A stretch of DNA of 64,000 nt, taken from IMG/VR virus record IMGVR_UViG_3300047564_002270, positions 1-64,000 of that record. One strand, 5' to 3'. The notes below the pieces were generated by a model. That model ran no database searches, was not told where the DNA came from, and was given only the letters and a program-made list of their open reading frames with translations. Positions 35,305-51,349 of this stretch are shown here, one piece after another (position 1 is the stretch's first letter; each line of letters opens with the position of its first letter). The stretch comes from a virus. The position numbers and the translations under genes were made by a program.

Positions 35305-35315
35305 TAAGAAATGAA

Positions 35316-35347
35316 AAAACCTCAGGAGCGGCCACCCCTGAGGTTTT
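35316..35347 (+). terminator. Terminator of the tRNA array
   Basis: AAAACCTCAGG (35316-35326) / CCTGAGGTTTT (35337-35347), GC-rich loop. Confidence 0.9.
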
Positions 35348-35437
35348 ATTTTGACCACACACGTCCCGTTGAGGACATACGTATTTATACAATTTGAAAC
35401 AAATTAATCGTTTAAATTATTAAGGAGTTATAAAGTA

Positions 35438-35445
35438 TATAAATA
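35438..35445 (+). promoter_or_regulatory. T4-like late promoter with a 300-nt leader
   Basis: TATAAATA. The next convincing start codon is at 35746. The leader holds hairpins: GAGGA-GCAA-TCCTC (35453-35466), TCCTA / TAGGA, and CAGAG / CTCTG. Confidence 0.65.
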
Positions 35446-35745
35446 AAATCAAGAGGAGCAATCCTCAGAGTTAGAGACAGCAGACGTATTACTCAGTGAT
35501 TCCTTTTTTGGTTCACTCATTAATGCTTCATTGGGTCTCCTAGATTTTCTTAGGAAAGTCTAAATCACACACGTCACGTATCTCTAACAGGAGATATGTT
35601 CAATCCCGAAGAGAAGTATTCCCAGAGGACTCGGCCAAAGTTCTCTGAGGCAAGGATTCTTCTGGCAATATGTCAGGGAAGGATTGTGCATATCTCTCCA
35701 AAATTACTTATATACACTTTCTTTCCCTTACGGAGAATAAAAAAA

Positions 35746-36648: not shown

Positions 36649-36666
36649 TTATTCATAGTTAAACTT

Positions 36667-36692
36667 GGGAGGGAAATATTCCCTCCCTTATT
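36667..36692 (+). terminator. Terminator-like hairpin
   Basis: GGGAGGGAA (36667-36675) / TTCCCTCCC (36679-36687) followed by TTATT. Confidence 0.7.
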
Positions 36693-36707
36693 ACAGGAGA
36701 ATTAACT

Positions 36708-37313
36708 ATGTCTATGGATGATTATGATAGACAACTTATAGAGCTAAATGCTCTTCTTACTGCTGCCAGAAGTCACGGAACCCAAGAGCAGGTGGATTTT
36801 GCTTTGCAAAATATTCAAAAGGCCCTGGGAAATGAGACTCCAAACGGTGGAACAAACATTTCTAATATTACTGTAAATGTCGAAGATGATGATTGCGATG
36901 ATGTGTGCCCACCTGGTCCTCCTGGGCCACCTGGGCCTCCTGGTCCTCCAGGTGAACCAGGACCTCCCGGTCCTCCAGGTGAGCAGGGACCTCCTGGTCC
37001 TCAAGGACCGATAGGAATTTGCAGTTGTAAATGCTCCACACGCCTTGTAACTACCAATTACACGGCAACCTGTGATGATTACTATATTGGAGTTAAATCT
37101 GATGGTCCAGTGACGATTTCACTGCCAGAAGAATGTACCGATTGCTGCGAATTAATTATCAAAGCAGAAATGGGACCTCCTCTTGGAAATAGGAAAGTTA
37201 CTGTTCAGGCAACAGGTGCCAGTTATATTGATGGCACAGACAAATATGTTATAGAAGTCCCGTATCAATCTGTGAATATTATTTGTAGAGATGGAGATTG
37301 GCACATCATCTAA
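36708..37313 (+). CDS. Collagen-like repeat protein with a C-terminal head domain
   Basis: 201 residues. A helical N-terminus (1-45) is followed by an acidic segment and about 12 G-X-Y triplets ([16 protein letters not shown] and onward, about 66-103), which should form a collagen-like triple helix. Cys clusters flank it (CDDVCP and CSCKCS). The C-terminal domain (about 112-201, ending [18 protein letters not shown]) is homologous to the end of the next protein. It is probably a trimeric fiber with a receptor- or sugar-binding tip. An AGGAG ribosome site precedes the ATG. Confidence 0.78.
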
Positions 37314-37322
37314 GGAGAAAAA

Positions 37323-37934
37323 ATGGCTTACTTAGCACAACCTACCTCAAAGACAGAATATGGTGTTGTGGGTGTTGGTAGTTTTATCAATGTTCTTGAT
37401 GGGTTTATTTCTTTAGAACAAGATGTATCACCTACTAGTGTTGTATCTTTTTCTCAGGTTAATGTTGGAAATAAAGATGTAGTTACTTCAGTAAATCCAG
37501 TTGCTGGAGATGGCATCTCAATTACCGATTTAGTTTCGATAGGAAACACAGTTGGATTTGCGGTTTCAAATATAGGTGTTCTATCTTTATCTGCCGGTTC
37601 TGGAATTTCAATTTCCAATACCACCGGAAATATTACAATCTCGGCATCTGGTGCAGACCTGATTGCTACGATTGGAGTTACTGGTGCTTATACTGCAACT
37701 GCAAGTGATGAATATATTGGCGTTTTCAGTGCCTCTGCAGTCACAATTACTCTTCCCATTGGAATTACTGGAAGAGTTTATACAATTAAAGATGAATATG
37801 GTCAGGGATCTGGAAAGATTACAATTAAACCTTCTGGAGCAGAAAAGGTTGATAATTCAAATACTTATGTAATATCGGTGCCGTATCAATCGGTATCGGT
37901 GGTATTTCGTGGCGGACAATGGAGAATTATTTAA
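37323..37934 (+). CDS. Beta-rich fiber or adhesin-like protein
   Basis: 203 residues, Gly/Ser/Thr/Val-rich, with short beta-strand repeats in the N-terminal 120 residues. The C-terminal domain (YTATASDEYIGVFS ... VPYQSVSVVFRGGQWRII) matches the collagen-like protein just upstream, so the two share a tip domain and probably interact or serve as alternatives. The last 16 nt overlap the protease gene. Confidence 0.7.
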   Translation: MAYLAQPTSKTEYGVVGVGSFINVLDGFISLEQDVSPTSVVSFSQVNVGNKDVVTSVNPVAGDGISITDLVSIGNTVGFAVSNIGVLSLSAGSGISISNTTGNITISASGADLIATIGVTGAYTATASDEYIGVFSASAVTITLPIGITGRVYTIKDEYGQGSGKITIKPSGAEKVDNSNTYVISVPYQSVSVVFRGGQWRII

Positions 37935-38680
37935 ATCTAAACTTTAAAGTCAGAAAATCACCTTCGGAAGAAAGTGATCTAATCTATAAGAGCGATAATA
38001 CAAAATGTATTCAAGAAATCGCTGACCTAAGACAGTGGGATACTCTTGTAGAAAATCAGGGAACCTTAAGTGCTTGTAGTGGTTCTGCCATTACAAGTGC
38101 CTATGAACTGATGGTAAAGCAATTGTATCCAGAACAGTCTGTGGAATTAAGTGATTTGTTTGTTTATTACAATGCTCGCTTGAATGAAGGAACAGTCAAT
38201 CGGGATATTGGAATTTACGTTAAGACTGGTATGAGTGTTCTAAAAGAATATGGTGTTTGCTCTGAAGATCTATGGCCTTATGATTTAGAAATGTGGGATG
38301 ATAAACCTCCCAATATTGCTTATGATGATGCTGAAAAAAGAAAAATTTTACAGTATCAAAAAGTAACCAGCACATATTATCTCACTGAAGTGTTGAGTGA
38401 CAACAAACCAGTTGTTTTCGGTATGGAAATATATGATAGTTTTATGGAATTAGATAACCGTATTTCGACTGTGCCATTCCCTTCACGTAAGGAAAAAAGT
38501 CAAGGTGGACACGCAATGTGTATGGTTGGTTACGACCTAGAAAAAAGACTTTTTCTTGCGAAGAATAGTTTTGGAACCAATTGGGGAATGGAAGGGTATT
38601 GTTGGGTCCCTTTTGATTACCTTAAACAGGAAGGATACGATGCGTGGATATTTGATATTCCACCCCAAGTAGGAACCTAA
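37919..38680 (+). CDS. Papain-like (C1 family) cysteine protease
   Basis: 253 residues. All C1 landmarks are present: the oxyanion Gln with the catalytic Cys in NQGTLSACSGSA (Q47, C53), the His in GGHAMCMVGYD (H198), and the Asn in AKNSFGTNWG (N216). There is no obvious signal peptide or propeptide. It is co-transcribed with fiber-like and Tyr-rich genes, so it may be virion-borne or act on virion or host surface proteins. Proteases of this class are unusual in T4-like phages. Confidence 0.85.
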   Translation: MENYLNLNFKVRKSPSEESDLIYKSDNTKCIQEIADLRQWDTLVENQGTLSACSGSAITSAYELMVKQLYPEQSVELSDLFVYYNARLNEGTVNRDIGIYVKTGMSVLKEYGVCSEDLWPYDLEMWDDKPPNIAYDDAEKRKILQYQKVTSTYYLTEVLSDNKPVVFGMEIYDSFMELDNRISTVPFPSRKEKSQGGHAMCMVGYDLEKRLFLAKNSFGTNWGMEGYCWVPFDYLKQEGYDAWIFDIPPQVGT

Positions 38681-38681
38681 A

Positions 38682-38831
38682 ATGTACGACTATTACCGAC
38701 CCTATGACTACTACCGTCCGTATGGATATGGATATCATAGGTATTATGATTCTTGTTGTTATAGACCTTGGTATTATGGACCATATTCGTATAGTTCATA
38801 TCCTTTTTATCCTTACAGACCTTATTACTAA
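38682..38831 (+). CDS. Tyrosine-rich small protein 1
   Basis: 49 residues, of which about 23 are Tyr, with Pro, Arg and Gly (YDYYRPYDYYRPYGYG and similar repeats) and a Cys-Cys pair. It starts 1 nt after the protease stop. The composition suggests an adhesive or aggregation-prone surface peptide. The same style continues in the next protein. Confidence 0.62.
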   Translation: MYDYYRPYDYYRPYGYGYHRYYDSCCYRPWYYGPYSYSSYPFYPYRPYY

Positions 38832-38851
38832 CAATTTAAATGGAGGAAATT

Positions 38852-39121
38852 ATGTTCACCCCCTACTATCCCTATAATAGGAATTATTATCAACCTTATA
38901 TGCCATATAGGCCCTATAGTCCTTATAATGGTTATTATCCAATATCTTCTTATAACTACATGAGAAATCAAATAGCTCAGAACTATCAGAGCATTTATAA
39001 CAGTGGATATATGACTGATGTCATTCAAAGTTCTGATATTAATCAAGTTGGTGCTGGATGTACAGTACCAATTCCTGGAGAACCTCCAGTTCCCCCGATA
39101 GAACCAATTCCAGTTATTTGA
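38852..39121 (+). CDS. Tyrosine/proline-rich protein 2
   Basis: 89 residues from ATG 38852, with a TGGAGG ribosome site ending 5 nt before it. The N-terminal 45 residues are Tyr/Pro/Asn-rich (YYPYNRNYYQPYMPYRPY); the rest is a normal soluble stretch ending in Pro-rich PVPPIEPIPV. Function unknown. Confidence 0.65.
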   Translation: MFTPYYPYNRNYYQPYMPYRPYSPYNGYYPISSYNYMRNQIAQNYQSIYNSGYMTDVIQSSDINQVGAGCTVPIPGEPPVPPIEPIPVI

Positions 39122-39134
39122 AAGGTGATCTATT

Positions 39135-39557
39135 ATGGGATTTGGTATAACGAATAAACAAATTGCAGTTCTTGAATCTAGATTTCAATTTTATGAAAAT
39201 CTATCAAAAGAAATGTTGTACAAGTTAGAAAAAGCAGTAGATAGGATTACCGAGAGTAATCATACTGTTGCTATTATTCTTGAACGGCATGAAAATAGAT
39301 TAGACAGTACCGCACAATCAACTGAGTTAATTATCAAAATGATTGATGAGGTGCGTAAATCTGTTGATAAAAAAATAAATTTAGTTGAAAAAAAGATTGA
39401 AGATGTTTCTAGAATAAAATGGATGATTGTTGGTGTTGGAATGGCATCGGCAATTCTAGCAACTTCAATTTCTACTTTGGCATCTGGATGGTGGACTCCA
39501 GGTGAATTGGGATACAAAATGCAACACAAGTACGTTCCAACAGAAAAATCAAAATAA
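39135..39557 (+). CDS. Coiled-coil membrane-anchored protein, paralog B
   Basis: 140 residues. A long coiled coil (about 8-95) is followed by one membrane segment (VGVGMASAILATSISTLAS) and GWWTPGELGYKM. The segment from IKWM to WWTP is shared with the protein at 22961. AAAGGTG ribosome site 6 nt upstream. It could link the inner membrane to another envelope layer; this is inference. Confidence 0.7.
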   Translation: MGFGITNKQIAVLESRFQFYENLSKEMLYKLEKAVDRITESNHTVAIILERHENRLDSTAQSTELIIKMIDEVRKSVDKKINLVEKKIEDVSRIKWMIVGVGMASAILATSISTLASGWWTPGELGYKMQHKYVPTEKSK

Positions 39558-39579
39558 CGTAGCACCATCAGTTGCTTGA

Positions 39580-39587
39580 TATAAATA
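39580..39587 (+). promoter_or_regulatory. T4-like late promoter
   Basis: TATAAATA, 16 nt before ATG 39604 (dps-like). Confidence 0.72.
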
Positions 39588-39603
39588 ATAACAAAAAAGT
39601 ATA

Positions 39604-40038
39604 ATGGAAACACTGTACAAACTATTGAGTGATGCTCAGTCATCACTCTTTGTTCTTTTTCATAAGACCTGGGTATTTCATTGGAATGTAGTTGGCAAAG
39701 ATTTCACACAACTACATCAACTGTTTGGTGGTCAATACGAAGCAATGTTTAGTGAGATTGATAGACTTTCAGAACATATGAGATACTTGAATGTTAAACC
39801 TTTGAGTTCTCTTTCAAGAATGCTTGAAGTAACTCAAATTCAAGAAGCAGCAAGTTCTACAACAGCAGACAAAATGCTTTCAGAACTTCTGGAAAATAAT
39901 GAAAAGTTCTGTGAAATGTTAAAAGAAATTTCCGAAGAAGCAGAAGAGCAAAAGTCTTATGCCACTGCTAATCTGGTTCAAGATCTAATGGAGTCTCACG
40001 GTAAATTTATTTGGCAATTAAGAGCACACTCCCAATGA
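39604..40038 (+). CDS. Dps-like ferritin-family protein
   Basis: A 144-residue four-helix protein. The Dps ferroxidase pattern is visible: HKTWVFHWNVVGKDF (H26), QLHQLFGGQYE (H38), and EIDRLSEHMR (D53, E57). Dps proteins store iron and protect DNA from oxidative damage. A phage copy could guard replicating DNA or remove peroxide in a photosynthesising host. It is expressed from a late promoter and its stop overlaps the next ATG, so the protein may instead be packaged. Length is normal for the family. Confidence 0.85.
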   Translation: METLYKLLSDAQSSLFVLFHKTWVFHWNVVGKDFTQLHQLFGGQYEAMFSEIDRLSEHMRYLNVKPLSSLSRMLEVTQIQEAASSTTADKMLSELLENNEKFCEMLKEISEEAEEQKSYATANLVQDLMESHGKFIWQLRAHSQ

Positions 40039-40190
40039 AAAAAACATTTAAACAATTTAAACAAACAGCATATGCTGGTTCAAAACCTCATACTGTGTAT
40101 AACCCTACTACTGGTAAAAAGACACATATAGAGGCAGGAAAAGCAATGGCAAAACGTTCTTCATCAAGTGCTGGTGGAGACGGGCAATAA
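40035..40190 (+). CDS. Small basic protein with MKKTFKQF N-terminus
   Basis: 51 residues, Lys/Thr/Ser-rich, translationally coupled to dps by ATGA. The N-terminus KKTFKQFKQTAYAG weakly resembles capsid-targeting peptides. Not recognised. Confidence 0.6.
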   Translation: MKKTFKQFKQTAYAGSKPHTVYNPTTGKKTHIEAGKAMAKRSSSSAGGDGQ

Positions 40191-40216
40191 ATAAACACTT
40201 ATAAGATGATAAAAAA

Positions 40217-40474
40217 ATGGAAAACTTAAGAATTAGATGTCGTTCCTGTAATAAGGAATTAGAGGGGCATCCTACTAAAACTGTGACATGTGGTTGTTCA
40301 AATATGGCAACCATCCGTGGAGGAGTCATTTCAGGAGTTGACTTATCCAATGTGGTTATGCTAAACTCTATGAATACCAAAACAAAATCTGGTGTTCTCT
40401 CAAACGAGGACATTGCCTGGCAAGAGGCAAGAAGACAACGTAAAGTTCGTAGATTAGATTTTGAAGTCCGATGA
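40217..40474 (+). CDS. Small zinc-ribbon-like protein
   Basis: 85 residues. CRSCNKELEGHPTKTVTCGC carries a Cys-x2-Cys...Cys-x-Cys pattern suggesting one zinc site. The C-terminus is basic (EARRQRKVRRLDF). Conserved-looking but of unknown function. Confidence 0.65.
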   Translation: MENLRIRCRSCNKELEGHPTKTVTCGCSNMATIRGGVISGVDLSNVVMLNSMNTKTKSGVLSNEDIAWQEARRQRKVRRLDFEVR

Positions 40475-40475
40475 G

Positions 40476-40507
40476 TATAAATAATACCAGTATACTAAAC
40501 TGGTATG
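40476..40507 (+). promoter_or_regulatory. Late promoter and start-codon hairpin of the PD-(D/E)xK nuclease gene
   Basis: TATAAATA (40476-40483) directly precedes the stem ATACCAGT (40484-40491) / ACTGGTAT (40499-40506). The ATG (40505-40507) lies in the 3' arm. Read-through RNA would hide the start codon; RNA started near 40489 would lose the 5' arm. Confidence 0.7.
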
Positions 40508-40891
40508 TTTGAAAATTTACCTCCAGTAACTCAAGGGTCGTTAGGTTTATCTTATGCTATTGCCTATCTGACTAAAAAAGGTTATAATGTCTCTGTTCCT
40601 TTAGTTGATAATCAAAGTTATGATTTGGTTTGTGAAGTTGATAGTGAATTAAAAAAAGTTCAAGTTAAGACCACAAGGTTCAAACAAAATTCTAATTACT
40701 GTATTCAACTAAAATCAGTTAGAGCAAATAGAACCGAAAACAATATACATAAATTTAATAATAAAGCATCAGATTATTTACTTGCTGTTACTGAAGTGGG
40801 TGATATTTATTTTATTCCTACCTCAGATATTGTGGCAAAAAACTCATTGTCTTTAGGACCAAAATATGAGTCCTATAAAGATAAATTATAA
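40505..40891 (+). CDS. PD-(D/E)xK homing-type endonuclease
   Basis: 128 residues. TQGSLGLSYAIAYL, then SYDLVCEVDSELKKVQVKTT gives the PD-(D/E)xK layout: Asp in YDLV (about residue 39) and V-K-T after a short spacer (about 51-54). This matches the type of cyanobacterial and phage homing nuclease represented by I-Ssp6803I. The stop codon abuts tRNA-Ser(TGA) with zero spacing. It is controlled by a late promoter beside a start-codon hairpin. Confidence 0.78.
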   Translation: MFENLPPVTQGSLGLSYAIAYLTKKGYNVSVPLVDNQSYDLVCEVDSELKKVQVKTTRFKQNSNYCIQLKSVRANRTENNIHKFNNKASDYLLAVTEVGDIYFIPTSDIVAKNSLSLGPKYESYKDKL

Positions 40892-40978
40892 GGAAGGTCA
40901 ATCCGATTGGCGACGGAACCGCTCTTGAAAAGCGTTGAGGTGTTAAAGCCCTTGGGAGTTCGACTCTCCCACCTTCCG
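40892..40978 (+). tRNA. tRNA-Ser(TGA)
   Basis: Class II: acceptor GGAAGGT / ACCTTCC, anticodon CGCT-CTTGAAA-AGCG, long variable arm, T-arm GGGAG / CTCCC, discriminator G. It begins at the base after the nuclease stop. Confidence 0.92.
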
Positions 40979-41031
40979 TTTTACTTAAGATTTAACAATT
41001 TTTTGAACTATGTTACAGTATGAACACAAAC

Positions 41032-41059
41032 TTGACTTCTGAGACATATAAGTTATTAT
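41032..41059 (+). promoter_or_regulatory. Sigma70-like promoter
   Basis: TTGACT (41032-41037), 16-bp spacer, TATTAT (41054-41059), 29 nt before ATG 41088. Confidence 0.65.
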
Positions 41060-41087
41060 AACTAATACAATCAATCAAAAATTTCAT

Positions 41088-41237
41088 ATGGATCAACACA
41101 CCTATGATAATTGGGTGAAGATCAAAGAAACCTTTGAAACTTCTGGTAATACAAATAATATGTTTTACAAGAGAGCAGTTGAAATTGTAAAAACCAGAAG
41201 AGATCCTTTAGCAAAATTCCTTGGCGATGAAAAATGA
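41088..41237 (+). CDS. Small conserved-type cyanophage protein
   Basis: 49 residues, charged and helical (YDNWVKIKETFE, YKRAVEIVKTRRDP). It overlaps the next gene by 4 bp (ATGA). Function unknown. It is the first gene of a run of tiny overlapping ORFs. Confidence 0.65.
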   Translation: MDQHTYDNWVKIKETFETSGNTNNMFYKRAVEIVKTRRDPLAKFLGDEK

Positions 41238-41437
41238 TGGAACCAGGTGATGAATTTATAAGTCGTGAAGAAGTTCAGGAGATGATTGATGCTGCTATCA
41301 GAAGACACAACCGTAATGCTTCTATCATTAGTATGTGCGTCGGTTGGGTGGTTCTTTCTTTATTTGCTGAGGGACTTTTGAGATTGATAGGAGTTATTCC
41401 ACCTTTAATGCCATGGCTTAAAATCACTTTAAACTAA
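41234..41437 (+). CDS. Small single-span membrane protein
   Basis: 67 residues: a charged N-terminal helix (EEVQEMIDAAIRRHNRN), then a hydrophobic segment (IISMCVGWVVLSLFAEGLL). Coupled at both ends. Function unknown. Confidence 0.62.
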   Translation: MMEPGDEFISREEVQEMIDAAIRRHNRNASIISMCVGWVVLSLFAEGLLRLIGVIPPLMPWLKITLN

Positions 41438-41550
41438 TGGTTCAAATTTCAGAAAAAGATTTAAAAGAATTACAACAAAGAGTCCTTCAGCAAAAAATGG
41501 ATGAACTCTTTGAAGAACCTTCAACTTACGAGGATGAAGAAGATGAGTAA
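41437..41550 (+). CDS. Tiny acidic helical protein
   Basis: 37 residues, Gln/Glu/Leu-rich, very acidic end (EPSTYEDEEDE). ATG overlaps the previous stop (TAATG); the end overlaps the next gene by 8 bp. Confidence 0.5.
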   Translation: MVQISEKDLKELQQRVLQQKMDELFEEPSTYEDEEDE

Positions 41551-41632
41551 ATTAATTTATACCTCAATGACTATTTTCGGTCTTACAGGTCTTTTTATTT
41601 TCTGGAGTCTCAATCATGCATATCTTCGATAA
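41543..41632 (+). CDS. 29-residue membrane peptide
   Basis: 29 residues with one span (MTIFGLTGLFIFWSLNHAYL). Its size and shape recall small photosynthetic-complex subunits, but no homology can be claimed. It overlaps both neighbours. Confidence 0.48.
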   Translation: MSKLIYTSMTIFGLTGLFIFWSLNHAYLR

Positions 41633-41816
41633 ACAAAGATATGCTTTTGCAATGTCTGCTTTTGTGAGAATGCATGGGTATTCTGTTTCTCATAATCATG
41701 ATATTAGACAGTTTTGTATTGAATGGTCTGGTTGGGATGTTTATGCTCCTTTAACGGGGCTTGATGAGGTTGATCAGTATTTTTATTACGAATATAAGAA
41801 TTGGAGAGGGAGATGA
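41616..41816 (+). CDS. Small hypothetical protein
   Basis: 66 residues, His/Tyr/Trp-rich (FVRMHGYSVSHNHD, IEWSGWDVY). Soluble. Overlaps neighbours by 4-17 bp. Not recognised. Confidence 0.58.
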   Translation: MHIFDKQRYAFAMSAFVRMHGYSVSHNHDIRQFCIEWSGWDVYAPLTGLDEVDQYFYYEYKNWRGR

Positions 41817-41929
41817 TATTTTATATTGTAGAAACACTTGCAGCGAGTCCAGTTTGGTTGTTTATGTGTGGTATGGGGTTGACAGTGGTTCCTTTTATTG
41901 GTATAATGTTCATACACCGAAATAAATAA
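41813..41929 (+). CDS. 38-residue membrane peptide
   Basis: One long hydrophobic span (VWLFMCGMGLTVVPFIGIMF). A perfect promoter for tRNA-Pro lies inside the coding region, so coding status is less certain; the ATGA overlap upstream supports it. Confidence 0.45.
   Translation: MIFYIVETLAASPVWLFMCGMGLTVVPFIGIMFIHRNK
41879..41907 (+). promoter_or_regulatory. Full-consensus promoter for tRNA-Pro copy 2
   Basis: TTGACA (41879-41884), 17-bp spacer, TATAAT (41902-41907). The predicted start is only about 24 nt before the tRNA. Confidence 0.88.
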
Positions 41930-41937
41930 ACGTGTAA

Positions 41938-42011
41938 CGGGGTGTAGCGCAGTTTGGTAGCGCATCCGCTTTGGGAGCGGGAGGTCGTAGGTTCGAATCC
42001 TATCACCCCGA
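41938..42011 (+). tRNA. tRNA-Pro(TGG), copy 2
   Basis: Acceptor CGGGGTG / CACCCCG, anticodon stem TCCGC / GCGGG with loop TTTGGGA, T-arm GTAGG / CCTAT. Different in sequence from copy 1 at 32739, so probably acquired separately. Confidence 0.92.
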
Positions 42012-42048
42012 TTGTCTTATGACATTTAGACATTATTGGCTTGAATTT

Positions 42049-42624
42049 ATGAGTGAACATAAAATTGCTAAATCTGCTGGACACTATGAGGAAGTTATTC
42101 CAGATGAGTTGATGGACTTGATTGTCAAGGAAGTAGAAAGTATTGATTATGAAGTTTTTTCAGAAGCCAGTATTGGAGATTCTGGAAGTTCTATTGTGGA
42201 AACTAAAACAAGAAATTCCAAGATCACTTGGTGGTATGAAGAACATTGGGTTTGTTCTATTTTTTCTCATTACTTTAATAAGGCAAATAGAGAGTTCTGG
42301 GAATATGATTTGACTTACTTGTCAGGTATTCAGGTGACGAGTTATGATGTTGGAGAGCATTATGGGTGGCACGCAGACTACGGAAATCCAGATGATTCAA
42401 ATCATACCCGTAAATTAAGTGCCACTTTACTTGTAAATGATCCTTCTGAATATGAAGGTGGAGATCTTGAATTTATTGATTATCATGGAAGAACTCTTGT
42501 TGCCCCTAGGGTGAAAGGAACTATGATTATCTTTGATTCTAGAATTCCTCATAGAGTAACTCCTGTAACTAAAGGAAAAAGAATTTCTTTAGTTTCTTGG
42601 ATGCTTGGTCCTAAACTTCGATAA
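42049..42624 (+). CDS. 2OG-Fe(II) oxygenase, prolyl-4-hydroxylase type
   Basis: 191 residues from ATG 42049; ATG 42019 would add ten. Iron ligands: HYGWHADYGN (H-x-D) and IPHRVTPV (distal His); KRISLVSW supplies the 2OG-binding residue. The SATLLVNDPSEYEGGDLEF segment is typical of PKHD/P4Hc-type enzymes. It differs from the oxygenase at 31142. The substrate is unknown. Confidence 0.85.
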   Translation: MSEHKIAKSAGHYEEVIPDELMDLIVKEVESIDYEVFSEASIGDSGSSIVETKTRNSKITWWYEEHWVCSIFSHYFNKANREFWEYDLTYLSGIQVTSYDVGEHYGWHADYGNPDDSNHTRKLSATLLVNDPSEYEGGDLEFIDYHGRTLVAPRVKGTMIIFDSRIPHRVTPVTKGKRISLVSWMLGPKLR

Positions 42625-42645
42625 ATTATAAATTAAGTTGTAGAT

Positions 42646-42873
42646 ATGGAAAACATTTCACCCACGATGGAAAAATTTAACGTAGAATATTTCCAGCAAA
42701 ATTTTGACGAAATCATGGAAAGAGTTGATAATGGTGAGACCTTTATTGTTCAAAGTGAATATGGGAATGCTATGTTAGTTCCATATAAAGATGTTGTAGA
42801 TGTGTTTGAAGACTCTAGAGTTTCTGAAGAAGATTTTACAAGACTTTACAGAGACCACGAAGAAGCCCCTTGA
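42646..42873 (+). CDS. Phd/YefM-type antitoxin-like protein
   Basis: 75 residues. NVEYFQQNFDEIMERVDNGETFIVQSEYGNAMLVPY follows the Phd/YefM fold pattern: an F-R/Q-x-N helix, then G-E and two strands ending in a V-P-x-x-hydrophobic helix. No toxin gene lies next to it. It may counter a host toxin or bind DNA. The stop lies inside the TTGACA of the next promoter. Confidence 0.72.
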   Translation: MENISPTMEKFNVEYFQQNFDEIMERVDNGETFIVQSEYGNAMLVPYKDVVDVFEDSRVSEEDFTRLYRDHEEAP

Positions 42874-42898
42874 CAAAGCGTTTCAGATCCGCTATTAT
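42870..42898 (+). promoter_or_regulatory. Sigma70-like promoter for a tRNA
   Basis: TTGACA (42870-42875), 17-bp spacer, TATTAT (42893-42898). The antitoxin TGA stop is part of the -35. Confidence 0.83.
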
Positions 42899-42912
42899 AG
42901 ATCTGAACCTAA

Positions 42913-43000
42913 GCGAGTGAGACTTGGTAGTCAGAGGAGTCTTATAAACTCTTTCCGCCAGATTAGCGGCTTTGACCTGGTTCGAATCCAGGCACTCGTA
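42913..43000 (+). tRNA. Class II tRNA with TAT anticodon
   Basis: Acceptor GCGAGTG / CACTCGT, short D-arm GAC-TTGGTA-GTC, anticodon stem GGAGT / ACTCT with loop CTTATAA (TAT), a long variable arm with CCGC / GCGG, T-arm CCTGG / CCAGG. A long variable arm is normal only for Leu, Ser or Tyr, yet TAT would read Ile AUA. It may be a changed Leu tRNA; identity is uncertain. Confidence 0.75.
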
Positions 43001-43002
43001 TT

Positions 43003-43031
43003 ACTCATAACTTTCATAAATAGTTATGAGT
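43003..43031 (+). promoter_or_regulatory. Hairpin with a late promoter in its loop (HNH 3)
   Basis: 10-bp stem ACTCATAACT (43003-43012) / AGTTATGAGT (43022-43031), with CATAAATA (43015-43022) spanning the loop. Transcripts from it would start near 43028 and lack the 5' arm. Confidence 0.7.
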
Positions 43032-43046
43032 TATTTAAAACTTAAT

Positions 43047-43421
43047 ATGCCCAGAAAAAGAAAAACTTCTGCCGATTGTGATATAATACGAGAGTATCAA
43101 CGCAATTGGTTAAGAGATAAACTTAAAAGCGACCCAGAATACAGGGAACGACATTACGCAAACCGACAAAATAGAGCAAAACAAAATAAAGAAAATCTCA
43201 CAAAGTTAAAAGAAAATATTTGTTGCTCTGCTTGTGGTGAATATCATCCAGCATGTTGTATGGATTATCATCATTTAGACCCAAATATAAAAGAAAAAGG
43301 TGTATCACAAATGATACAGGGAAATTCTTGGAAAAAAATTCAAGAAGAAATTTCTAAATGTATTTTAGTTTGTGCAAATTGTCATAGAAAAATTCACGAA
43401 GGACTTATTACGCTCGTTTAG
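43047..43421 (+). CDS. HNH homing-type endonuclease 3
   Basis: 124 residues from ATG 43047. ATG 43026 lies in the hairpin stem and would precede the expected late start. A basic N-terminal half (PRKRKTS, WLRDKL, HYANRQNRAKQ) leads to zinc and HNH elements: CSACGEYHPACCMDYHHLDP and CANCHRKIHEG. This H-H-D...H type is a different subfamily from HNH 1 and 2. The TAG stop lies within tRNA-Met (CAT), 10 nt into the tRNA. Confidence 0.83.
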   Translation: MPRKRKTSADCDIIREYQRNWLRDKLKSDPEYRERHYANRQNRAKQNKENLTKLKENICCSACGEYHPACCMDYHHLDPNIKEKGVSQMIQGNSWKKIQEEISKCILVCANCHRKIHEGLITLV

Positions 43422-43485
43422 CCATCTGGAGAAGGCAGCGTTCTCATAAAGCGCCATCAGGAGAGTTCGATCCTCTCAACGAGCA
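43412..43485 (+). tRNA. tRNA-Met/Ile2(CAT), copy 2
   Basis: Acceptor GCTCGTT / AACGAGC, D-stem GCC / GGC, anticodon stem GCGTT / AGCGC with loop CTCATAA, T-arm GAGAG / CTCTC. Not an initiator type, since pair 1-72 is G-C. Confidence 0.88.
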
Positions 43486-43511
43486 TAAGGACACTTCCGA
43501 AAGCGTCCTAC

Positions 43512-43540
43512 TTGACTTCTCTAAGTCAAACCCTTATAAT
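43512..43540 (+). promoter_or_regulatory. Sigma70-like promoter
   Basis: TTGACT (43512-43517), 17-bp spacer, TATAAT (43535-43540), 22 nt before ATG 43563. A hairpin without a T tract (43488-43509) lies just before it, perhaps a tRNA 3' processing signal. Confidence 0.8.
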
Positions 43541-43562
43541 ACTAAGGTCAACATTCAAAACA

Positions 43563-43778
43563 ATGACTCTCACTTCTAAATTTAAGAAAGACGTTCAGAC
43601 CCTTCGCGGTGCTGCAAATGGCGATTTCTATCTTGACGTAAAGAATCCAAAACTCTTTAAAAAAGTTCGTCGTTTTTATGAGCAAGAAGGTGTAGTATTC
43701 TCTGGTGATCCACTTGATGACTATGAAATGCTTATGGAATATGTCCTTGCCGATCTAGAATCCGTTGAGGTTGCATGA
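43563..43778 (+). CDS. Small conserved-type hypothetical protein
   Basis: 71 residues from ATG 43563, charged and helical (KNPKLFKKVRRFYEQEGVVF). It has its own early-type promoter and overlaps the next gene by 4 bp. Function unknown. Confidence 0.63.
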   Translation: MTLTSKFKKDVQTLRGAANGDFYLDVKNPKLFKKVRRFYEQEGVVFSGDPLDDYEMLMEYVLADLESVEVA

Positions 43779-44017
43779 CAAAAGTTCTTTTAGAACGTGA
43801 AGAATACCGATTTGTTGAAGTTGGTATTATTGAGATAAACGGTAAACCTGATTACCGTCTTCAAAAGAAAAATGAATATACAAAACGATGGAATGACATC
43901 TATCTCTTTGATAATCAAATGCAGTGTTTGACTGCTATGGAAGACCATCAATATGCCCGTTGGTTAGATCCAGATAGAGTTCCTTGTTATATTAAAGATG
44001 ATGGGGATGAAGAATAG
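43775..44017 (+). CDS. Small hypothetical protein
   Basis: 80 residues, rich in Arg, Asp, Glu and Tyr (EEYRFVEVGIIEINGKPDYR). ATGA overlap with the preceding gene. Soluble, unknown. Its stop abuts the structured RNA before the sugar cluster. Confidence 0.63.
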   Translation: MTKVLLEREEYRFVEVGIIEINGKPDYRLQKKNEYTKRWNDIYLFDNQMQCLTAMEDHQYARWLDPDRVPCYIKDDGDEE

Positions 44018-44250
44018 TCTCGGAAAGACTTAAAACCTGCCCTGGTCGGGAGCAAACCCCTTAGTCACGGATGGACTATAACAGAACTGGTGGAGTCAAG
44101 TATGACCCTATTATGAGTTTCCAGTTTCTCTAAAGAACTGGTGGTGCGGATGGGGTAACCCCGCCTGGTTTCCAATTTCCAGTTAAAGAATTGGTGGCGC
44201 GTGTAAAGTAGGTTTATACATAAGAGGAGAATAATTCTCCTCTTTTTTTG
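44016..44250 (+). ncRNA. Structured RNA upstream of the sugar cluster (manA-motif candidate)
   Basis: AGTCT (44016-44020) / AGACT (44026-44030); CCAGTT (44121-44126) / AACTGG (44136-44141); GCGG (44146-44149) / CCGC (44161-44164); CCAATT (44172-44177) / AATTGG (44189-44194). The second and fourth hairpins are near repeats and differ by a compensatory G-C to A-T change, which supports the pairing. A terminator ends the element at 44250. A cupin of the mannose-6-phosphate isomerase type follows, the context in which the manA RNA motif was described in cyanophages; membership is not proven. Confidence 0.62.
44222..44250 (+). terminator. Terminator at the end of the structured RNA
   Basis: AGAGGAGAAT / ATTCTCCTCT (44223-44243) with T7. 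It could be the expression platform of a cis-regulator or simply the RNA end. Confidence 0.88.
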
Positions 44251-44264
44251 TATTTGAAATTTGT

Positions 44265-44603
44265 ATGGAAAAGGTAAAACGTCCTTGGGGATGGTATGAA
44301 AATCTTTTAGAAGATTCTGGATATAAAGTAAAAAGACTTTACGTTAATTCGGATCAAAGTATATCTTTACAGTATCATAATTTTAGAAATGAGCACTGGG
44401 TGGTAGTTTCTGGAGATGGTATAGTAGAAATAGATGGTGTTTCTAAGAATATCTTTTCTGGCGATTATATATTTGTTCCATTAAATTCTAAACATCGTAT
44501 TATTGGTGGAAAGTGTGGTATAATTATTGTAGAAGTTCAGATGGGAGAAGTGTGTGAAGAGACTGATATTGTCAGGATTGAAGATCAATATGGTAGAATA
44601 TAA
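44265..44603 (+). CDS. Cupin, mannose-6-phosphate isomerase type II-like
   Basis: 112 residues, a single cupin domain. VKRPWGWYENLLED at the start and YHNFRNEHWVVVSGDG with DYIFVPLNSKHRI are the hallmarks of the C-terminal isomerase domain of ManC/type II phosphomannose isomerases. It lacks the guanylyltransferase part. It probably makes mannose-6-phosphate from fructose-6-phosphate or acts on a nucleotide sugar. It heads the sugar cluster. Confidence 0.82.
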   Translation: MEKVKRPWGWYENLLEDSGYKVKRLYVNSDQSISLQYHNFRNEHWVVVSGDGIVEIDGVSKNIFSGDYIFVPLNSKHRIIGGKCGIIIVEVQMGEVCEETDIVRIEDQYGRI

Positions 44604-44620
44604 GGAATTAAATTACTGAA

Positions 44621-45631
44621 ATGACTAAAAAAATTGCTTTAATTACTGGTATAACTGGACAAGATGGATCATATCTTGCTGAACTCCTTTTAGAAAAAGG
44701 ATATGAAGTTCATGGTATTGTTCGTAGATCTTCTTTGATTAATACTGATAGGATTGATCATATCTATAATCACATTCATCTTCATTATGGTGATCTTACG
44801 GATTCCACAAATCTTGTAAGAGTTATTCAGCAGGTTCAACCTGATGAGATTTATAATCTTGGTGCTCAGAGCCATGTAAAAGTTTCTTTTGAAATTCCTG
44901 AATATACCGGACAAGTTGATGCTCTTGGAACTCTTAGAGTTCTTGAGGCAGTTCGCCTTTTAGGAATGGATGACAAAGTTCGCATTTATCAGGCATCTAC
45001 TTCGGAACTTTATGGTAAGGTTCAGGAAATTCCTCAGACGGAGACAACTCCTTTTTATCCAAGAAGTCCTTATGGGGTTGCTAAAATTTATGGTTACTGG
45101 ATCGTTAAAAATTATCGTGAGGCATATGGACTTTATGCTTGCACGGGGATTCTTTTTAATCATGAATCTCCTCGCCGGGGTGAGACATTTGTTACTCGTA
45201 AGATCACAAGAGGTCTTAAGGCAATTTCTGAGGGCAAACAAACCGTTCTTAAACTTGGCAATCTAAATGCCCTTCGTGATTGGGGTCATGCAAAAGATTA
45301 TGTTGAAGCAATGTGGTTAATGCTTCAACAGGATGAACCTGATGACTTTGTAATTGCTACTGGTAAGCAATATTCAGTTCGTGAGTTTGTTGAAAGAGCA
45401 GCACCTTACTTTGGAATGAATATTGAATGGCAGTTTACTGATCAAGGAACTGAAGTTGGAATTGATAAAAATACTGGATTAGTGCGTGTAATGGTCGATC
45501 CTAAATATTTCCGACCTGCTGAAGTTGAAACTTTGTTAGGTGATGCCACAAAGGCAAAGCAGAAACTAGGTTGGGAACCTAAGATTTCTTTTGAACAATT
45601 AGTTGAGGAAATGTGTAAAAATGAATATTGA
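44621..45631 (+). CDS. gmd: GDP-mannose 4,6-dehydratase
   Basis: A 336-residue short-chain dehydratase. NAD(P)-binding [15 protein letters not shown] at the N-terminus; the catalytic [14 protein letters not shown] (Ser/Thr-x-Glu) near residue 128 and [10 protein letters not shown] (Tyr-x3-Lys) near 153. It converts GDP-D-mannose to GDP-4-keto-6-deoxymannose, the branch point for fucose, perosamine and colitose. It overlaps the next gene by 11 bp. Confidence 0.95.
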
Positions 45632-46565
45632 TTCTAAAATTTTTATTGCTGGTCATCGAGGTTTGGTTGGATCCGCGCTTACTAGAAATTTAAAGGACCT
45701 TGGACATACTAATGTTCTTGGTGTAAGTAAATCTATATTAGATTTAACAAATCAAAATCAGGTTAATGATTTCTTTGAAAACGAAAGACCCGAGTATGTT
45801 TTTCTTGCTGCCGCAAAAGTCGGCGGTATTGGATATAATAAACAATGCCCCGCAGATTTTATTAGAGAAAATCTGCAAATTCAAACCAACGTGATTGATG
45901 CTGCATATAGAAATGGTTGTAAAAAACTTCTATTTTTAGGATCTGCTTGTATATATCCTAAACATGCGCCAGTTCCAATTAAGGAAGAGTATTTGATGTC
46001 TGGTCCTCTTGAAGAGACGAATATCTCATATTCATTGGCAAAGATTTCTGGATATCTAATGTGCAAAAAATATACTGAACAGTATGGGTTTTCTACTGTT
46101 TCTGTAATGCCAAATAATCTTTATGGTATCAATGATAATTTTATCATTGAGCAATGTCATGTGATTCCAAGTTTTATTAATAAATTTATTTCTGCAAAAG
46201 AAGATAACCAAGATATTGTAACTTGCTTTGGTGATGGAAGTCCAACCAGAGAGTTTTTATTCTCTGATGACCTTGCTGATGGTCTTGTGTTTTTGATGAA
46301 CAATTACTCTGATCCAGAAATTATTAATATCGGACCTCAGAGAGAGGTTAGTATTAAAGAACTTTCTGAATTAATTTCTAAGTTAGTTGAGTATACTGGA
46401 GAAATTTATTGGGATGTCAACAAACCAAATGGAACTCCTAGGAGAGCTTTAGATACTACTAAAATGGATTCCTTAGGTTGGAAGGCAAAAACATCACTTG
46501 AAGATGGTTTAAAAATTACAATTGATTGGTTTTTACAAAATAGGAGCAATTATGTCAGGGTATAA
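45621..46565 (+). CDS. wcaG: GDP-L-fucose synthase-like epimerase/reductase (WcaG/ColC type)
   Basis: 314 residues from ATG 45621. Rossmann motif [14 protein letters not shown]; active-site [12 protein letters not shown] and YSLAKISGY (Tyr-x3-Lys). It epimerises and reduces a GDP-4-keto-6-deoxy sugar. With Gmd alone this would yield GDP-L-fucose. With the ColD-like gene directly downstream, a ColC-type role in GDP-L-colitose synthesis is also possible. The end overlaps the next gene by 14 bp. Confidence 0.9.
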
Positions 46566-47718
46566 GTGGCCACTCATGAAAAACACTCTGTCAATCATGG
46601 ACAGAGTTAAATTGGCTAAGTTCATTTTAACTTCAGATAAATTTACTCAAGGTAAAAAAGTAAATCAATTTGAAGATGAGTGGTCAAAATGGATTGGTTG
46701 CAAACATTCTTTATTTGTAACATCTGGAAGTACTGCTAATTTTCTTTTGGTTGCTGCAATAATTGAAAAATTTAATTTACAGAAAGGGGATAAAGTTTTA
46801 CTCCCTGCTTGCACTTGGGTAACCAATATAAACCCTATTTTTCAATTAGGTCTTACTCCAATTTTTTGTGATGTAAATCTAGATGATTATAGTTTTGACA
46901 TTGAAAATTTAAAGCATATTTCCCAGACTCACTCTGATATTAAACTTGTTTTTGTAACTCATCTTCTTGGTATTCCTGCAAAAATAGAAAAGTATAAAGA
47001 GATTTTTCCAAATGCAATCTTTATCGATGATGTATGCGAATCTCATGGTTGTGTTGATTCTTTTGGAAATAAAATTGGATCTAATAGTTTAGGTGCAACT
47101 TTTAGTTTCTATTTTGGTCATCATATGTCAACTATTGAAGGTGGGATGATTTCCACTAATGATAGTGAACTATATGATTTGATGAAACTGAAAAGGTCTC
47201 ATGGGTTGGCAAGAGTGTCTGATAACTTTGATGAATACTCAAAGAAAAATCCAGAGATTGAAAAGTCTTTTCTGTTTGTGACTGATGGATATAATTTCCG
47301 AAATACTGAACTTGGGGCAGTTCTTGGTTTATCTCAACTCAAAAGGTTGGATAAGTTTATTGGAATTAGAAGAAATAATTATAAACAATTTGCCAATATC
47401 ATAAACAAACATAGTGATAAATTTTATCCAGTGGATTATAATTGGGGAAATAGTTGCTTCTGTTTTCCTTTCATTTGCAGGACTGCGGACGTAAAGAATA
47501 AACTAATTCAATTATTTGATAGGTATAAAATAGAATATAGACCAGTTGTCGGTGGGAATCTTTTAAGGCAACCTTATTTAAAAGGTTATACTATTTCTGA
47601 CAAAGTTGATAATTTTAATGTTGACATCATACACGAAAATGGAGTATATATAGGTAACAGTCAATTTGTTACAGAAAAGCAATTAATTCAAATTGATGAA
47701 ATATTAAAATTATTTTGA
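46552..47718 (+). CDS. ColD-like PLP enzyme (GDP-4-keto-6-deoxymannose 3-dehydratase type)
   Basis: 388 residues from ATG 46552 (AGGAG upstream). DegT/DnrJ/EryC1-fold sugar enzyme: SGSTANFLLVAAII, ACTWVTNI and the DVCESHG cofactor-binding Asp. At the place of the usual PLP lysine the sequence reads SFYFGHHMSTIEGG, with His-His (residues 190-191). ColD-type 3-dehydratases have His instead of Lys there and so dehydrate rather than simply transaminate. This points to a 3,6-dideoxysugar product such as GDP-colitose. Confidence 0.85.
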   Translation: MSGYKWPLMKNTLSIMDRVKLAKFILTSDKFTQGKKVNQFEDEWSKWIGCKHSLFVTSGSTANFLLVAAIIEKFNLQKGDKVLLPACTWVTNINPIFQLGLTPIFCDVNLDDYSFDIENLKHISQTHSDIKLVFVTHLLGIPAKIEKYKEIFPNAIFIDDVCESHGCVDSFGNKIGSNSLGATFSFYFGHHMSTIEGGMISTNDSELYDLMKLKRSHGLARVSDNFDEYSKKNPEIEKSFLFVTDGYNFRNTELGAVLGLSQLKRLDKFIGIRRNNYKQFANIINKHSDKFYPVDYNWGNSCFCFPFICRTADVKNKLIQLFDRYKIEYRPVVGGNLLRQPYLKGYTISDKVDNFNVDIIHENGVYIGNSQFVTEKQLIQIDEILKLF

Positions 47719-47726
47719 GGAAATTT

Positions 47727-48071
47727 ATGAGTAAATTTGGAGATCTTATCGATCAGTGCATTTCACAAACAGTAAATGAAGTTTTGTCTCAGAGAGAACT
47801 TCCAGATATTGAATATATTGCAACTGATAATCTTGGAGAAGTTGTAGAGAAACTTTCTATCCTTCATATTAGAACTTGGATGCTTGAAGATGCAATTCAA
47901 GAAGCAAAAACTGATGAAGAAATTGCTGAGTTAAAAAGAAAAATTGATATTTGCTTTAAAGTAAAAAGACCAAGACTTGTTCAGGCAATTAATTGCTTAG
48001 TTGAAGATGCAATTCATAATAATAAAAGCCTCAGAGAGGACTCTGTGAAATTGTATAAGGGTGTTGAGTAA
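47727..48071 (+). CDS. Small helical protein of the sugar cluster
   Basis: 114 residues from ATG 47727 (GAGG upstream). All-helical; LGEVVEKLSILHIRTWMLED and ELKRKIDICFKVKRPRLV suggest a conserved accessory protein often found next to glycosyltransferase genes. It overlaps the next gene by 1 bp. Role unknown. Confidence 0.65.
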   Translation: MSKFGDLIDQCISQTVNEVLSQRELPDIEYIATDNLGEVVEKLSILHIRTWMLEDAIQEAKTDEEIAELKRKIDICFKVKRPRLVQAINCLVEDAIHNNKSLREDSVKLYKGVE

Positions 48072-49003
48072 TGAAAAATATTTGTTTTTTCTGCCATTTT
48101 CATAATGGGGATATTTTTCATGTGAAATCTTTTATTAAAGATATAACCTCAAAAATAGACACTGAATATTACATAGCTCATCCAAACAGTGAAATTATTA
48201 CCTGTGATATGGATCTTCAGTATATTAATATTCCTTTAAGTTGGTCTAAGTTTACGGAACAATATCAAGAGAATAGAAAATTATATGAAGATCATGTAAA
48301 TTTATTGCTTGGGAAAGAGCATACCAAGTTTATTGAGACTGATGATTGTTTCTACATCAATACTTGGATTGGTGGTTATTTTGGTAATGAAAATGAATAT
48401 AATGGAGAATGTTCTTTGAGAGGATTTTACAGAATGTTCTCTAAAATTTATGAAAAATTGAATGAGGTATTTAATACTAATTTAGAATTAGGGCAGTTAA
48501 ACGATTATCTTCCATTTGTTGATTATTCAAAAATAGATTGTAGTGAAGTTGATAAATTTTTAGAAAACAATAATAATCAAAAAATTCTTATTTGTAATGG
48601 TCCTGCTTGTTCTGGGCAAACAACTTATAATGGAAATATGTCTGAGATTATAGTTCCATTAGCTGAGCAGAATGAAGATAAAACTTTTATTTGTACTCAG
48701 AAATTTGATACTGAATTAAATAATATAAAATTCAGCAATGATATTATTAACTCAAATTCTTGCGATTTGAATGAAATATCTTATCTGTCAAAATTTTGCT
48801 ATTTAATTGTAGGAAGAAATTCTGGACCTTTCTGTTTTTCTACAACTTATGAAAATTTAAATAATAAAGATAAAACATTTTTGGCTTTTGGAACTAGAGC
48901 AACAGATTGTTTAGCTTACGAAATGGATATAAATTCATCTTTTGTTTTTGAATATTTTAACAGCGTGGATGATTTGTATAAATCAATATCTGAATTAGTT
49001 TGA
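48071..49003 (+). CDS. Glycosyltransferase-like protein of the sugar cluster
   Basis: 310 residues. No strong signature, but the C-terminal half has ILICNGPACSGQTTYNG and LIVGRNSGPFCFSTT, like the donor-binding half of GT-B enzymes (compare the VGRNSGP loop). It sits between sugar-synthesis and transferase genes. The call rests mainly on context. Confidence 0.55.
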   Translation: MKNICFFCHFHNGDIFHVKSFIKDITSKIDTEYYIAHPNSEIITCDMDLQYINIPLSWSKFTEQYQENRKLYEDHVNLLLGKEHTKFIETDDCFYINTWIGGYFGNENEYNGECSLRGFYRMFSKIYEKLNEVFNTNLELGQLNDYLPFVDYSKIDCSEVDKFLENNNNQKILICNGPACSGQTTYNGNMSEIIVPLAEQNEDKTFICTQKFDTELNNIKFSNDIINSNSCDLNEISYLSKFCYLIVGRNSGPFCFSTTYENLNNKDKTFLAFGTRATDCLAYEMDINSSFVFEYFNSVDDLYKSISELV

Positions 49004-49014
49004 CATTATCTTAT

Positions 49015-50565
49015 ATGGAAAAATTTGCATTACTTGAAGTTGGGACTCCGCGTGGATTTCTTTCTAATTATACTACGGTATTAACTTCTTTTAGAAATTT
49101 AGTTAAGAATAAAAATATTGACCCAGAAAATATTTTTATTTCATCGAAAATGTTTTCTCTTTATGGTAATCCTGAGAATTGGTTTGATTCATCTAGGATA
49201 GTTGAAGATAATCCTGAAGAATTTATTTTATGGGATAGTGTAGATAACTTTGATCTATCTCTTTGGCCAACTACTACAGAGCTTGAACTTCAGGAATATA
49301 TTAAATATATTCCCTTTAACGATAGAATTCAACAGTTATTGACATTCGATAAAGTTGATTATTCAAATTGTCTTGGGATTCATTATAGGGGGACTGATAA
49401 TAGAAATGATTGTGGGCATACTGATTTTGTCTCTTTGGAAAAAACATTAAACTCTGCTTTAATTGAATTTAATGAAAACACATATGATTCTATTTTTATT
49501 GCTTCGGATGAACTTGGAGTTGTGGAGGAAGCTAAAGATTTCTTTTTAAAGGAATGTAATTTTAAAAACATACTTCACTTTAACCATATTAGAACAACAG
49601 GATATCAGGGGTTGCATTTTTCTGATTTTTCAGCAGACGAAAAAATAACTCTTGGTGATCAAGTTTTAGTAGACTCTACTACACTTTCAAAGTGTAAGAC
49701 TATAATTGGAAAAACTTCAAATATTGTAAATTATGCTAGGATTCTAAATCCAAATATTGAAATTTTATATCAAGATTTAGATAGCAATCGCTTACTCGGT
49801 AATTTGAATCAAACATTTAATCAAATTAGGATATCTGATATACAACCTTTTATTTTTAATTGGAAAAATCAATTTGAAAAAACTATTAAGACTGAAAAAT
49901 CTTTAAAAGAAATTTTTGGAGATGTGACTGTTATTAATAGTGATGAGGATAATACTAGAGAAGGTTGGATTGATTTAGGAGATAGTGCTTATTTTACCGA
50001 GCAGTTTACTAAAGCTTTGGAATTATTTAAAGACAATAAAAAAGTTTTAATGCATGTTCAAGGAGATACTGAGTATGATAATTATCTCGAATTGGTAAAT
50101 GATGCAAGAAAATATTATTCCATATATGAATGGGGTGTGTATGCTCCTGATATTACTAATGTTTGGTATACTTCAGAAAATGTGGATATTAATGGAATAG
50201 AATCCGAACATGAAAATATTAAAATGGTGGCGTGTACAGATGAAACTGTTTGGTTCATTCATAGGGATATTATAGAAGAATACTATGAAAGAAAACTTTT
50301 CGAAATCATGAATTCGGAAAAAATGAAAATGGGATGGGGTTGGGATTTGGTTATGAATTCTTTATCCTTTTTAAAGGGTAGACCTGTGATCCGGGATTAT
50401 AATCATCAAGTTCAACATAAGGAAGGAACAGATTATGATAAAGCATTTGCATCTCAAGAAATGACCAATCTTTGGTATAATCTTACCGATGACCTAAAAG
50501 AATGTATATCTTACATTAAGGGTGATCGAGAAAATTTAACAAAATATTTCAATAGCGATGGATAA
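49015..50565 (+). CDS. Two-domain glycosyltransferase, N-terminal fucosyltransferase-like
   Basis: 516 residues from ATG 49015. The N-terminal domain has CLGIHYRGTDNR (the HxRxxD-type GDP-fucose-binding motif of NodZ/FUT8-like enzymes) and SIFIASDELGVVE. The C-terminal part (from about 300) looks like a second transferase or partner domain with VACTDETVWFIHRDI and GWGWDLVMNS. This fits transfer of a GDP-deoxysugar made by the upstream enzymes. It overlaps the next gene by 8 bp. Confidence 0.72.
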   Translation: MEKFALLEVGTPRGFLSNYTTVLTSFRNLVKNKNIDPENIFISSKMFSLYGNPENWFDSSRIVEDNPEEFILWDSVDNFDLSLWPTTTELELQEYIKYIPFNDRIQQLLTFDKVDYSNCLGIHYRGTDNRNDCGHTDFVSLEKTLNSALIEFNENTYDSIFIASDELGVVEEAKDFFLKECNFKNILHFNHIRTTGYQGLHFSDFSADEKITLGDQVLVDSTTLSKCKTIIGKTSNIVNYARILNPNIEILYQDLDSNRLLGNLNQTFNQIRISDIQPFIFNWKNQFEKTIKTEKSLKEIFGDVTVINSDEDNTREGWIDLGDSAYFTEQFTKALELFKDNKKVLMHVQGDTEYDNYLELVNDARKYYSIYEWGVYAPDITNVWYTSENVDINGIESEHENIKMVACTDETVWFIHRDIIEEYYERKLFEIMNSEKMKMGWGWDLVMNSLSFLKGRPVIRDYNHQVQHKEGTDYDKAFASQEMTNLWYNLTDDLKECISYIKGDRENLTKYFNSDG

Positions 50566-51349
50566 AAATAAAGCAGTATTCAAATTAAATAATCTACCTT
50601 CGATATATTGGTTGAACTTAGATTCAGATACTCATCGTTGTCAATATATGGAAGGGCAATTTGATTATTGGGAAATCAAAAAGCATCATCGTATTTCTGG
50701 ATATGATGGAAGAGGTGATGATGTTTCTTCTTATTTGAAGGGGAGAATGCCTGATAATATGACTCAAAATGAGGTTGGATGTGTCTTGTCTCATTTAAAA
50801 GCAATTAAGCATTTTTATGAAGAAACTGACGATCCATATGTTCTTATTCTAGAAGATGATGTAAGTTTTGAACCTGTAAAATATTGGAGTTTTTCTTGGA
50901 CTGATTTTGTTGCAAATCTTCCTTATGATTGGGATTGTGTTCAATTAACAACTATATGTACTGGCGATATACATGTAAATCTTCATATCAGATTTATTAA
51001 TGATTTTTCTGCAGCCGCATATCTTATAACTAGGCATCACGCTGAAAAAATCGTTAAAAATCATATTAGGGGTGACAAATATAAACTTGATAACGGGGTA
51101 AAGCCTAGAGCAGTTTCTGAAGACCTTATTTTTGAATCTGGAAAAACCTATAGTGTTCCGATATTTTTGTATCGTTTGGATATGGGATCTGCCATTCACC
51201 CTGAGCATATTGAGATATTCCATAAAAATAGTCACGACGGTTTAATGAATTTTTGGAAAACTAGTGGATGTGATTTTAAAATATCTCAAATGATGACATA
51301 TGATCCTTATTTAAAGAGAATTACTCATCCTTCTGAAAAAACTTCTTGA
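50558..51349 (+). CDS. Glycosyltransferase family 25-like protein
   Basis: 263 residues. IYWLNLDSDTHRCQYM, NEVGCVLSHLKAIKHF and VLILEDDVSF (DxD-like EDD) are the landmarks of GT25 LPS glycosyltransferases. It probably adds a sugar to LPS or to a virion glycan. The TGA stop is part of the TTGACA of the porin promoter. Confidence 0.8.
   Translation: MDKNKAVFKLNNLPSIYWLNLDSDTHRCQYMEGQFDYWEIKKHHRISGYDGRGDDVSSYLKGRMPDNMTQNEVGCVLSHLKAIKHFYEETDDPYVLILEDDVSFEPVKYWSFSWTDFVANLPYDWDCVQLTTICTGDIHVNLHIRFINDFSAAAYLITRHHAEKIVKNHIRGDKYKLDNGVKPRAVSEDLIFESGKTYSVPIFLYRLDMGSAIHPEHIEIFHKNSHDGLMNFWKTSGCDFKISQMMTYDPYLKRITHPSEKTS

Follow-up and report, generated by a model that had tools for sequence, protein, structure and literature searches.

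The RNA element preceding the sugar operon of this T4-like cyanophage is the wcaG RNA, which lies inside a tandem array of four pseudoknot modules in the order U1-U2-K1-K2. The wcaG RNA of cyanophages is known; added here are the two upstream U modules, which are absent from Rfam. As to its role, we put at about one in two the probability that the array forms the untranslated 3' end of the transcript of a small early operon and acts in cis at the transcript boundary. The window denotes the whole stretch of DNA that was analysed (64,000 nucleotides), which is part of a virus record of 159,419 bases.

Identity and composition of the element

Searching with all Rfam 15 models revealed a match to wcaG (RF01761) at 44113-44208, which covers the model over its full length (positions 1-98) and scores 96.4 bits (E 7.6e-19) as compared to a gathering score of 42. 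This is the only wcaG match in the virus record. The phage host and the sugar-gene neighbourhood are as published for this family, which occurs upstream of exopolysaccharide or high-light genes, and a sugar operon follows 3' of the window copy. However, the modelled part comprises modules K1 and K2 only, that is about half of the whole element, whereas 44016-44112 has no match to any Rfam 15 model. The locus is organised as follows (window positions).

43512-43540, plus strand: sigma-70-like promoter TTGACT-17-TATAAT, presumed start of the array transcript (consensus scan, 11/12 matches; the number of such promoters found equals the shuffle mean)
43563-43778, plus strand: small phage ORF, phrog_552, at the T4-GC 249 position in S-SM2 and P-SSM2
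43775-44017, plus strand: small phage ORF, phrog_481, at the T4-GC 250 position
44016-44045, plus strand: module U1, H-type pseudoknot, S1 AGUC/GACU with crossing S2 (nhmmer 33.3 bits, covariation)
44044-44060, plus strand: linker hairpin GGTCGGG-AGCAAA-CCCC
44063-44090, plus strand: module U2, pseudoknot like U1, S1 AGUC/GACU (nhmmer 25.8 bits)
44089-44108, plus strand: linker hairpin GGTGGAGTCA-AGTA-TGACCC
44113-44208, plus strand: wcaG RNA RF01761 as delimited by Rfam (covariance model)
44115-44144, plus strand: module K1 pseudoknot, S1 GAG 44115-44117/CUC 44128-44130, S2 CCAGUU 44121-44126/AACUGG 44136-44141
44140-44165, plus strand: linker hairpin GGTGGTGCGGATGGGGTAACCCCGCC
44165-44199, plus strand: module K2 pseudoknot with tail GGUGGCG, S1 CUGG 44165-44168/CCAG 44179-44182, S2 CCAAUU 44172-44177/AAUUGG 44189-44194
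44222-44249, plus strand: intrinsic terminator, 10-bp stem within 44222-44244 and T-run to 44249
44265-44603, plus strand: MannoseP_isomer cupin (PF01050), first gene of the sugar operon
44621-51349, plus strand: remaining sugar operon, encoding GDP-mannose 4,6-dehydratase, epimerase, DegT aminotransferase, DUF4254, two unassigned ORFs and a glycosyltransferase of family 25

The preliminary description had delimited an element at 44016-44250 with two near-repeat hairpins, CCAGTT/AACTGG and CCAATT/AATTGG, in the context of the manA motif. Both hairpins are present as the S2 helices of K1 and K2, and they differ by the paired change that had been noted, i.e. one G-C to A-U exchange. The terminator likewise closes the element, at a distance of 15 nt from the start codon of the cupin gene. 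The extent given did include both hairpins, but the two further modules at 44016-44108 had been overlooked. The name manA had to give way to wcaG: the window shares the cyanophage host and the sugar-gene context with manA (RF01745), but there is no manA match at E≤10 within 43400-44700. What persists of the proposed context is a structure-conserved cyanophage RNA that adjoins a sugar operon and carries an intrinsic terminator at its end. Phage S-CREM1 carries the manA and wcaG motifs as separate elements.

Pseudoknot covariation and array distribution in relatives

The folding energy of the single window sequence is not significant (z -1.31, with 18 of 200 shuffles as stable), and single-sequence folding was dropped as proof of structure. 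Support beyond chance is provided by the covariance-model match and by covariation across relatives. Two pattern scans of IMG/VR together with phage records yielded at least 231 loci, with at least 305 distinct K modules (the wcaG type) and at least 139 distinct U modules among the matches listed; the CCAG type is over-represented because the K pattern of the scan fixed a CCAG loop. In K modules, the bases 5' of an invariant UUU pair with bases 3' of the hairpin's 5' strand. This pseudoknot helix is paired in 234 of the 305 modules listed, as compared to 123 (maximum 144) with permuted loops. When K modules of equal length are aligned, helix S1, which was not used in choosing the modules, is 95.5% paired and reaches a covariation score of 0.767 versus 0.203 for shuffles, while slid controls all remained below 0.29. 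Its pair types include GAG/CUC, CUGG/CCAG, CCUG/CAGG, CAGG/CCUG, GUG/CAC and CAG/CUG. In the U modules, both S1 and the two-pair helix that crosses it show covariation (C-G/U-A and A-U/G-C/U-A, 100% paired), yielding a score of 0.550 versus 0.156 for shuffles and at most 0.081 for slid controls. None of 500 shuffles reached the observed covariation for either K helix S1 or U; the shuffles ignore relatedness, which the slid controls take into account. Thus, all four window modules are H-type pseudoknots, backed by strong covariation in relatives. These pseudoknots exceed the Rfam covariance model, which is unable to hold a pseudoknot, the comparison being with the model itself. The unpaired bases UUU, UAAAG and GGUGGUGCGGAUGG are strongly conserved, which suggests a specific partner.

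These structural data bear on the idea that the modules are conserved intergenic boxes for the swapping of gene cassettes at the DNA level, devoid of any RNA function. Arrays do flank variable cassettes, small ORFs may sit between the U and K parts, and PeSL elements mediate shuffling according to work cited in PMC4503421. However, compensatory changes in helices that cross each other presuppose the folding of a single strand, and the wobble pairs in K helix S1 (12 G-U versus one A-C) favour the transcribed strand. We consequently consider a DNA-level recombination element highly improbable.

Profile searches detected at least 378 arrays, each with one to five modules at a spacing of 46-53 nt, and with a single exception among the 378 arrays listed, U comes before K. 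U modules recur in cyanophages, either immediately 5' of wcaG or with a small gene in between. Many phages carry a small ORF of the phrog_2318 family between the U and K parts (L019, L072 and similar loci), starting 12 nt past the U module. In Synechococcus phage DSL-LC02 (L252:2330-2530), the array is a mosaic: the first wcaG hairpin is replaced by a U module with a K-type linker, and the array continues directly into tRNA genes. In relatives, the array begins where the preceding small ORF ends or reaches a few bases into it; in the window, its first base pairs share bases with the stop codon of the phrog_481 ORF. Public annotations of S-SRM01 and Syn1 place a hypothetical CDS over the pseudoknot array (L008:2514-2720 and L009:2534-2623, respectively), which is probably spurious in both cases.

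Array matches in phage-record DNA come nearly all from Synechococcus phages. A host origin was also considered: the exact K pattern occurred in 11 non-phage contigs, which we judged to be chance, and RF01761 was found in none of 386 Cyanobacteriota genomes sampled across the whole phylum, among which host strains may be few. The same RF01761 search does detect wcaG in the window's own record. A dispersed repeat was ruled out, as the 159-kb genome of the window carries a single array.

Terminator, promoter and the transcript boundary

A strong hairpin follows 163 of the 195 K-ending arrays listed as compared to 62 of 1000 control positions, although enrichment over ordinary intergenic sequence must be smaller than this ratio because the controls were random rather than intergenic positions. 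The hairpin lies at a median of 7 nt past the array and has a T-rich tail in 146 of the 163 cases. In 130 of the 163 hairpins, the loop region contains a -35-like sequence, and a -10 box (at least 5/6 matches) is located just past 129 of the 163, as compared to 12.8% by chance. In most relatives, the terminator is thus fused to a sigma-70-like promoter of the next cassette, and the array therefore marks the boundary of two transcription units, with read-through usually dispensable for the downstream gene. Judged by this organisation, the wcaG RNA appears in most relatives to belong to the upstream transcript as its 3' tail rather than to the sugar genes as a leader. In the window, promoter boxes are missing both from the terminator loop GAATAATTC and from the TATTTG behind it, and no promoter or late-promoter motif was found between the terminator and the sugar operon. 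Read-through may therefore matter for the sugar operon here. In P-SSM2, the same flanking genes are present without array and terminator, and the sugar genes follow directly. Array plus terminator therefore constitute a removable unit boundary, which the operon does not require.

Promoter-early stem-loops (PeSLs) of T4-like phages were reportedly described by Arbiol in 2010 and Comeau in 2014. They are composites of a terminator hairpin and an early promoter, as cited in PMC4503421. Most relatives carry such a composite at the cassette boundary, i.e. a stem-loop terminator overlapping an early promoter, but with an additional pseudoknot array 5' of the hairpin; the window copy lacks the promoter overlap.

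For the cis-acting 3' tail that we favour, we infer a transcript that would start at the promoter at 43512, which is the closest promoter-like site 5' of the array, span the phrog_552 and phrog_481 ORFs and end in vivo at the terminator at 44222-44249. The stacked pseudoknots would be a binding site for a factor, or an obstacle to nucleases or polymerase; in this way, they would define or shield the 3' end and determine the level of transcriptional read-through into the sugar operon. Whether 3'-end protection or read-through control is given preference, either would be a choice that we infer. A pure 3'-end role does not explain the U-only arrays, which precede small ORFs: 3 of 121 U-ending arrays have a terminator. 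Conversely, a role independent of the downstream gene does not predict that a nucleotide-sugar epimerase is encoded 3' of 92 of the 198 K-ending arrays listed.

One alternative is a leader riboswitch or attenuator, and wcaG has been published as a probable riboswitch (Weinberg 2010, PMC2864571). According to this proposal, the pseudoknots would bind a metabolite, e.g. a nucleotide sugar, and switch the terminator, and the sugar operon would be expressed by conditional read-through. Sugar genes lie 3' of the array in most cases, with nucleotide-sugar epimerases and a cytidylyltransferase-like family (the latter in 28 of the 198 listed) enriched, the unpaired bases are highly conserved, the terminator is close to the array and the window operon has no promoter motif behind the terminator. 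However, tRNAs and photosynthesis-linked genes are also found among the downstream genes, and the sampled cyanobacterial genomes lack RF01761. Moreover, alternative pairing between the terminator arm and its own array shows no conserved excess over pairing with other arrays (-10.04 versus -10.01 kcal/mol). Finally, a wcaG RNA of the published kind would lie in the 5' UTR of the gene that it regulates, whereas the array appears to sit at the 3' end of the upstream unit, separated from the gene by the terminator and, in most relatives, by a new promoter. The 3'-tail position and the downstream gene's own promoter in most relatives argue against a simple 5'-leader riboswitch, which we regard as unlikely. 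The terminator had been suggested in the preliminary description to be the switch; this is weakened by the promoters of most relatives and the missing alternative pairing, but it retains some ground in the window, where promoter boxes are absent.

Processive antiterminator RNAs, such as put of phage HK022 and the RNA associated with eps in B. subtilis, offer a different route through a terminator. By analogy, the array would modify RNA polymerase, allowing early transcription to pass the terminator into the long sugar operon. The layout is compatible: the array is present once per genome and would be transcribed 5' of a strong terminator, behind which lies a long polysaccharide operon that in the window lacks a visible promoter of its own. 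Nevertheless, a promoter directly past the terminator in most relatives and U-only arrays with no terminator behind them make this quite improbable.

Other tandem pseudoknot RNAs and neighbouring features

Decoy-type precedents are provided by type III antitoxin RNAs and by pseudo-ToxI of phage PhiTE. Type III antitoxins (ToxI, CptI, TenpI) share the layout of the array, with a Rho-independent terminator placed behind tandem pseudoknots (PMC5086642). Architecturally, a trans-acting decoy is thus possible by analogy: wcaG would be part of a phage-specific pseudoknot RNA, freed by processing from the 3' tail, and would sequester a nuclease or RNA-binding protein of the host in trans instead of serving as a leader riboswitch. 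The restriction of the arrays to phages and the presence of an abiF RNA in the same genome are in line with this. On the other hand, type III antitoxins consist of near-identical repeats, unlike the modules of the array, which are unequal, diverged and of two types. Furthermore, no Rfam type III antitoxin family matches the window element, and a ToxN-, CptN- or TenpN-like endoribonuclease toxin gene is absent past the terminator, where the PF01050 cupin and then the sugar genes are located. We therefore hold a decoy function in trans to be very unlikely. STAXI (RF01728) likewise features a pseudoknot in two to three tandem copies (PMC2864571), but it is enterobacterial, is found near genes for DNA-binding proteins and gave no match at E≤10 around the window element.

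For more than ten years, wcaG has been treated as a probable orphan riboswitch of the 5' UTR. The arrays suggest a longer unit of up to five modules with crossing helices, which would form the 3' end of the transcript before it and adjoin a terminator-promoter composite on its 3' side. This shifts the choice of experiment to 3'-end mapping and read-through assays beside ligand screens, for which a defined target is now given in common marine Synechococcus phages.

Further RNAs were observed elsewhere in the window. The abiF RNA (RF03085, 46.8 bits) is located at 31757-31793, at the head of a large tRNA cluster, and could, if no abiF gene adjoins it, act as a decoy. ARAGORN predicts 25 tRNA genes at 31799-43485, including tRNA-Ile(tat). 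An HNH endonuclease ORF (43026-43421) is flanked by tRNA-Ile(tat) and tRNA-Met and extends with its 3' end into the tRNA-Met gene (at 43412). A PhotoRC-II RNA (RF01717, 80.3 bits) is present at 58858-58952.
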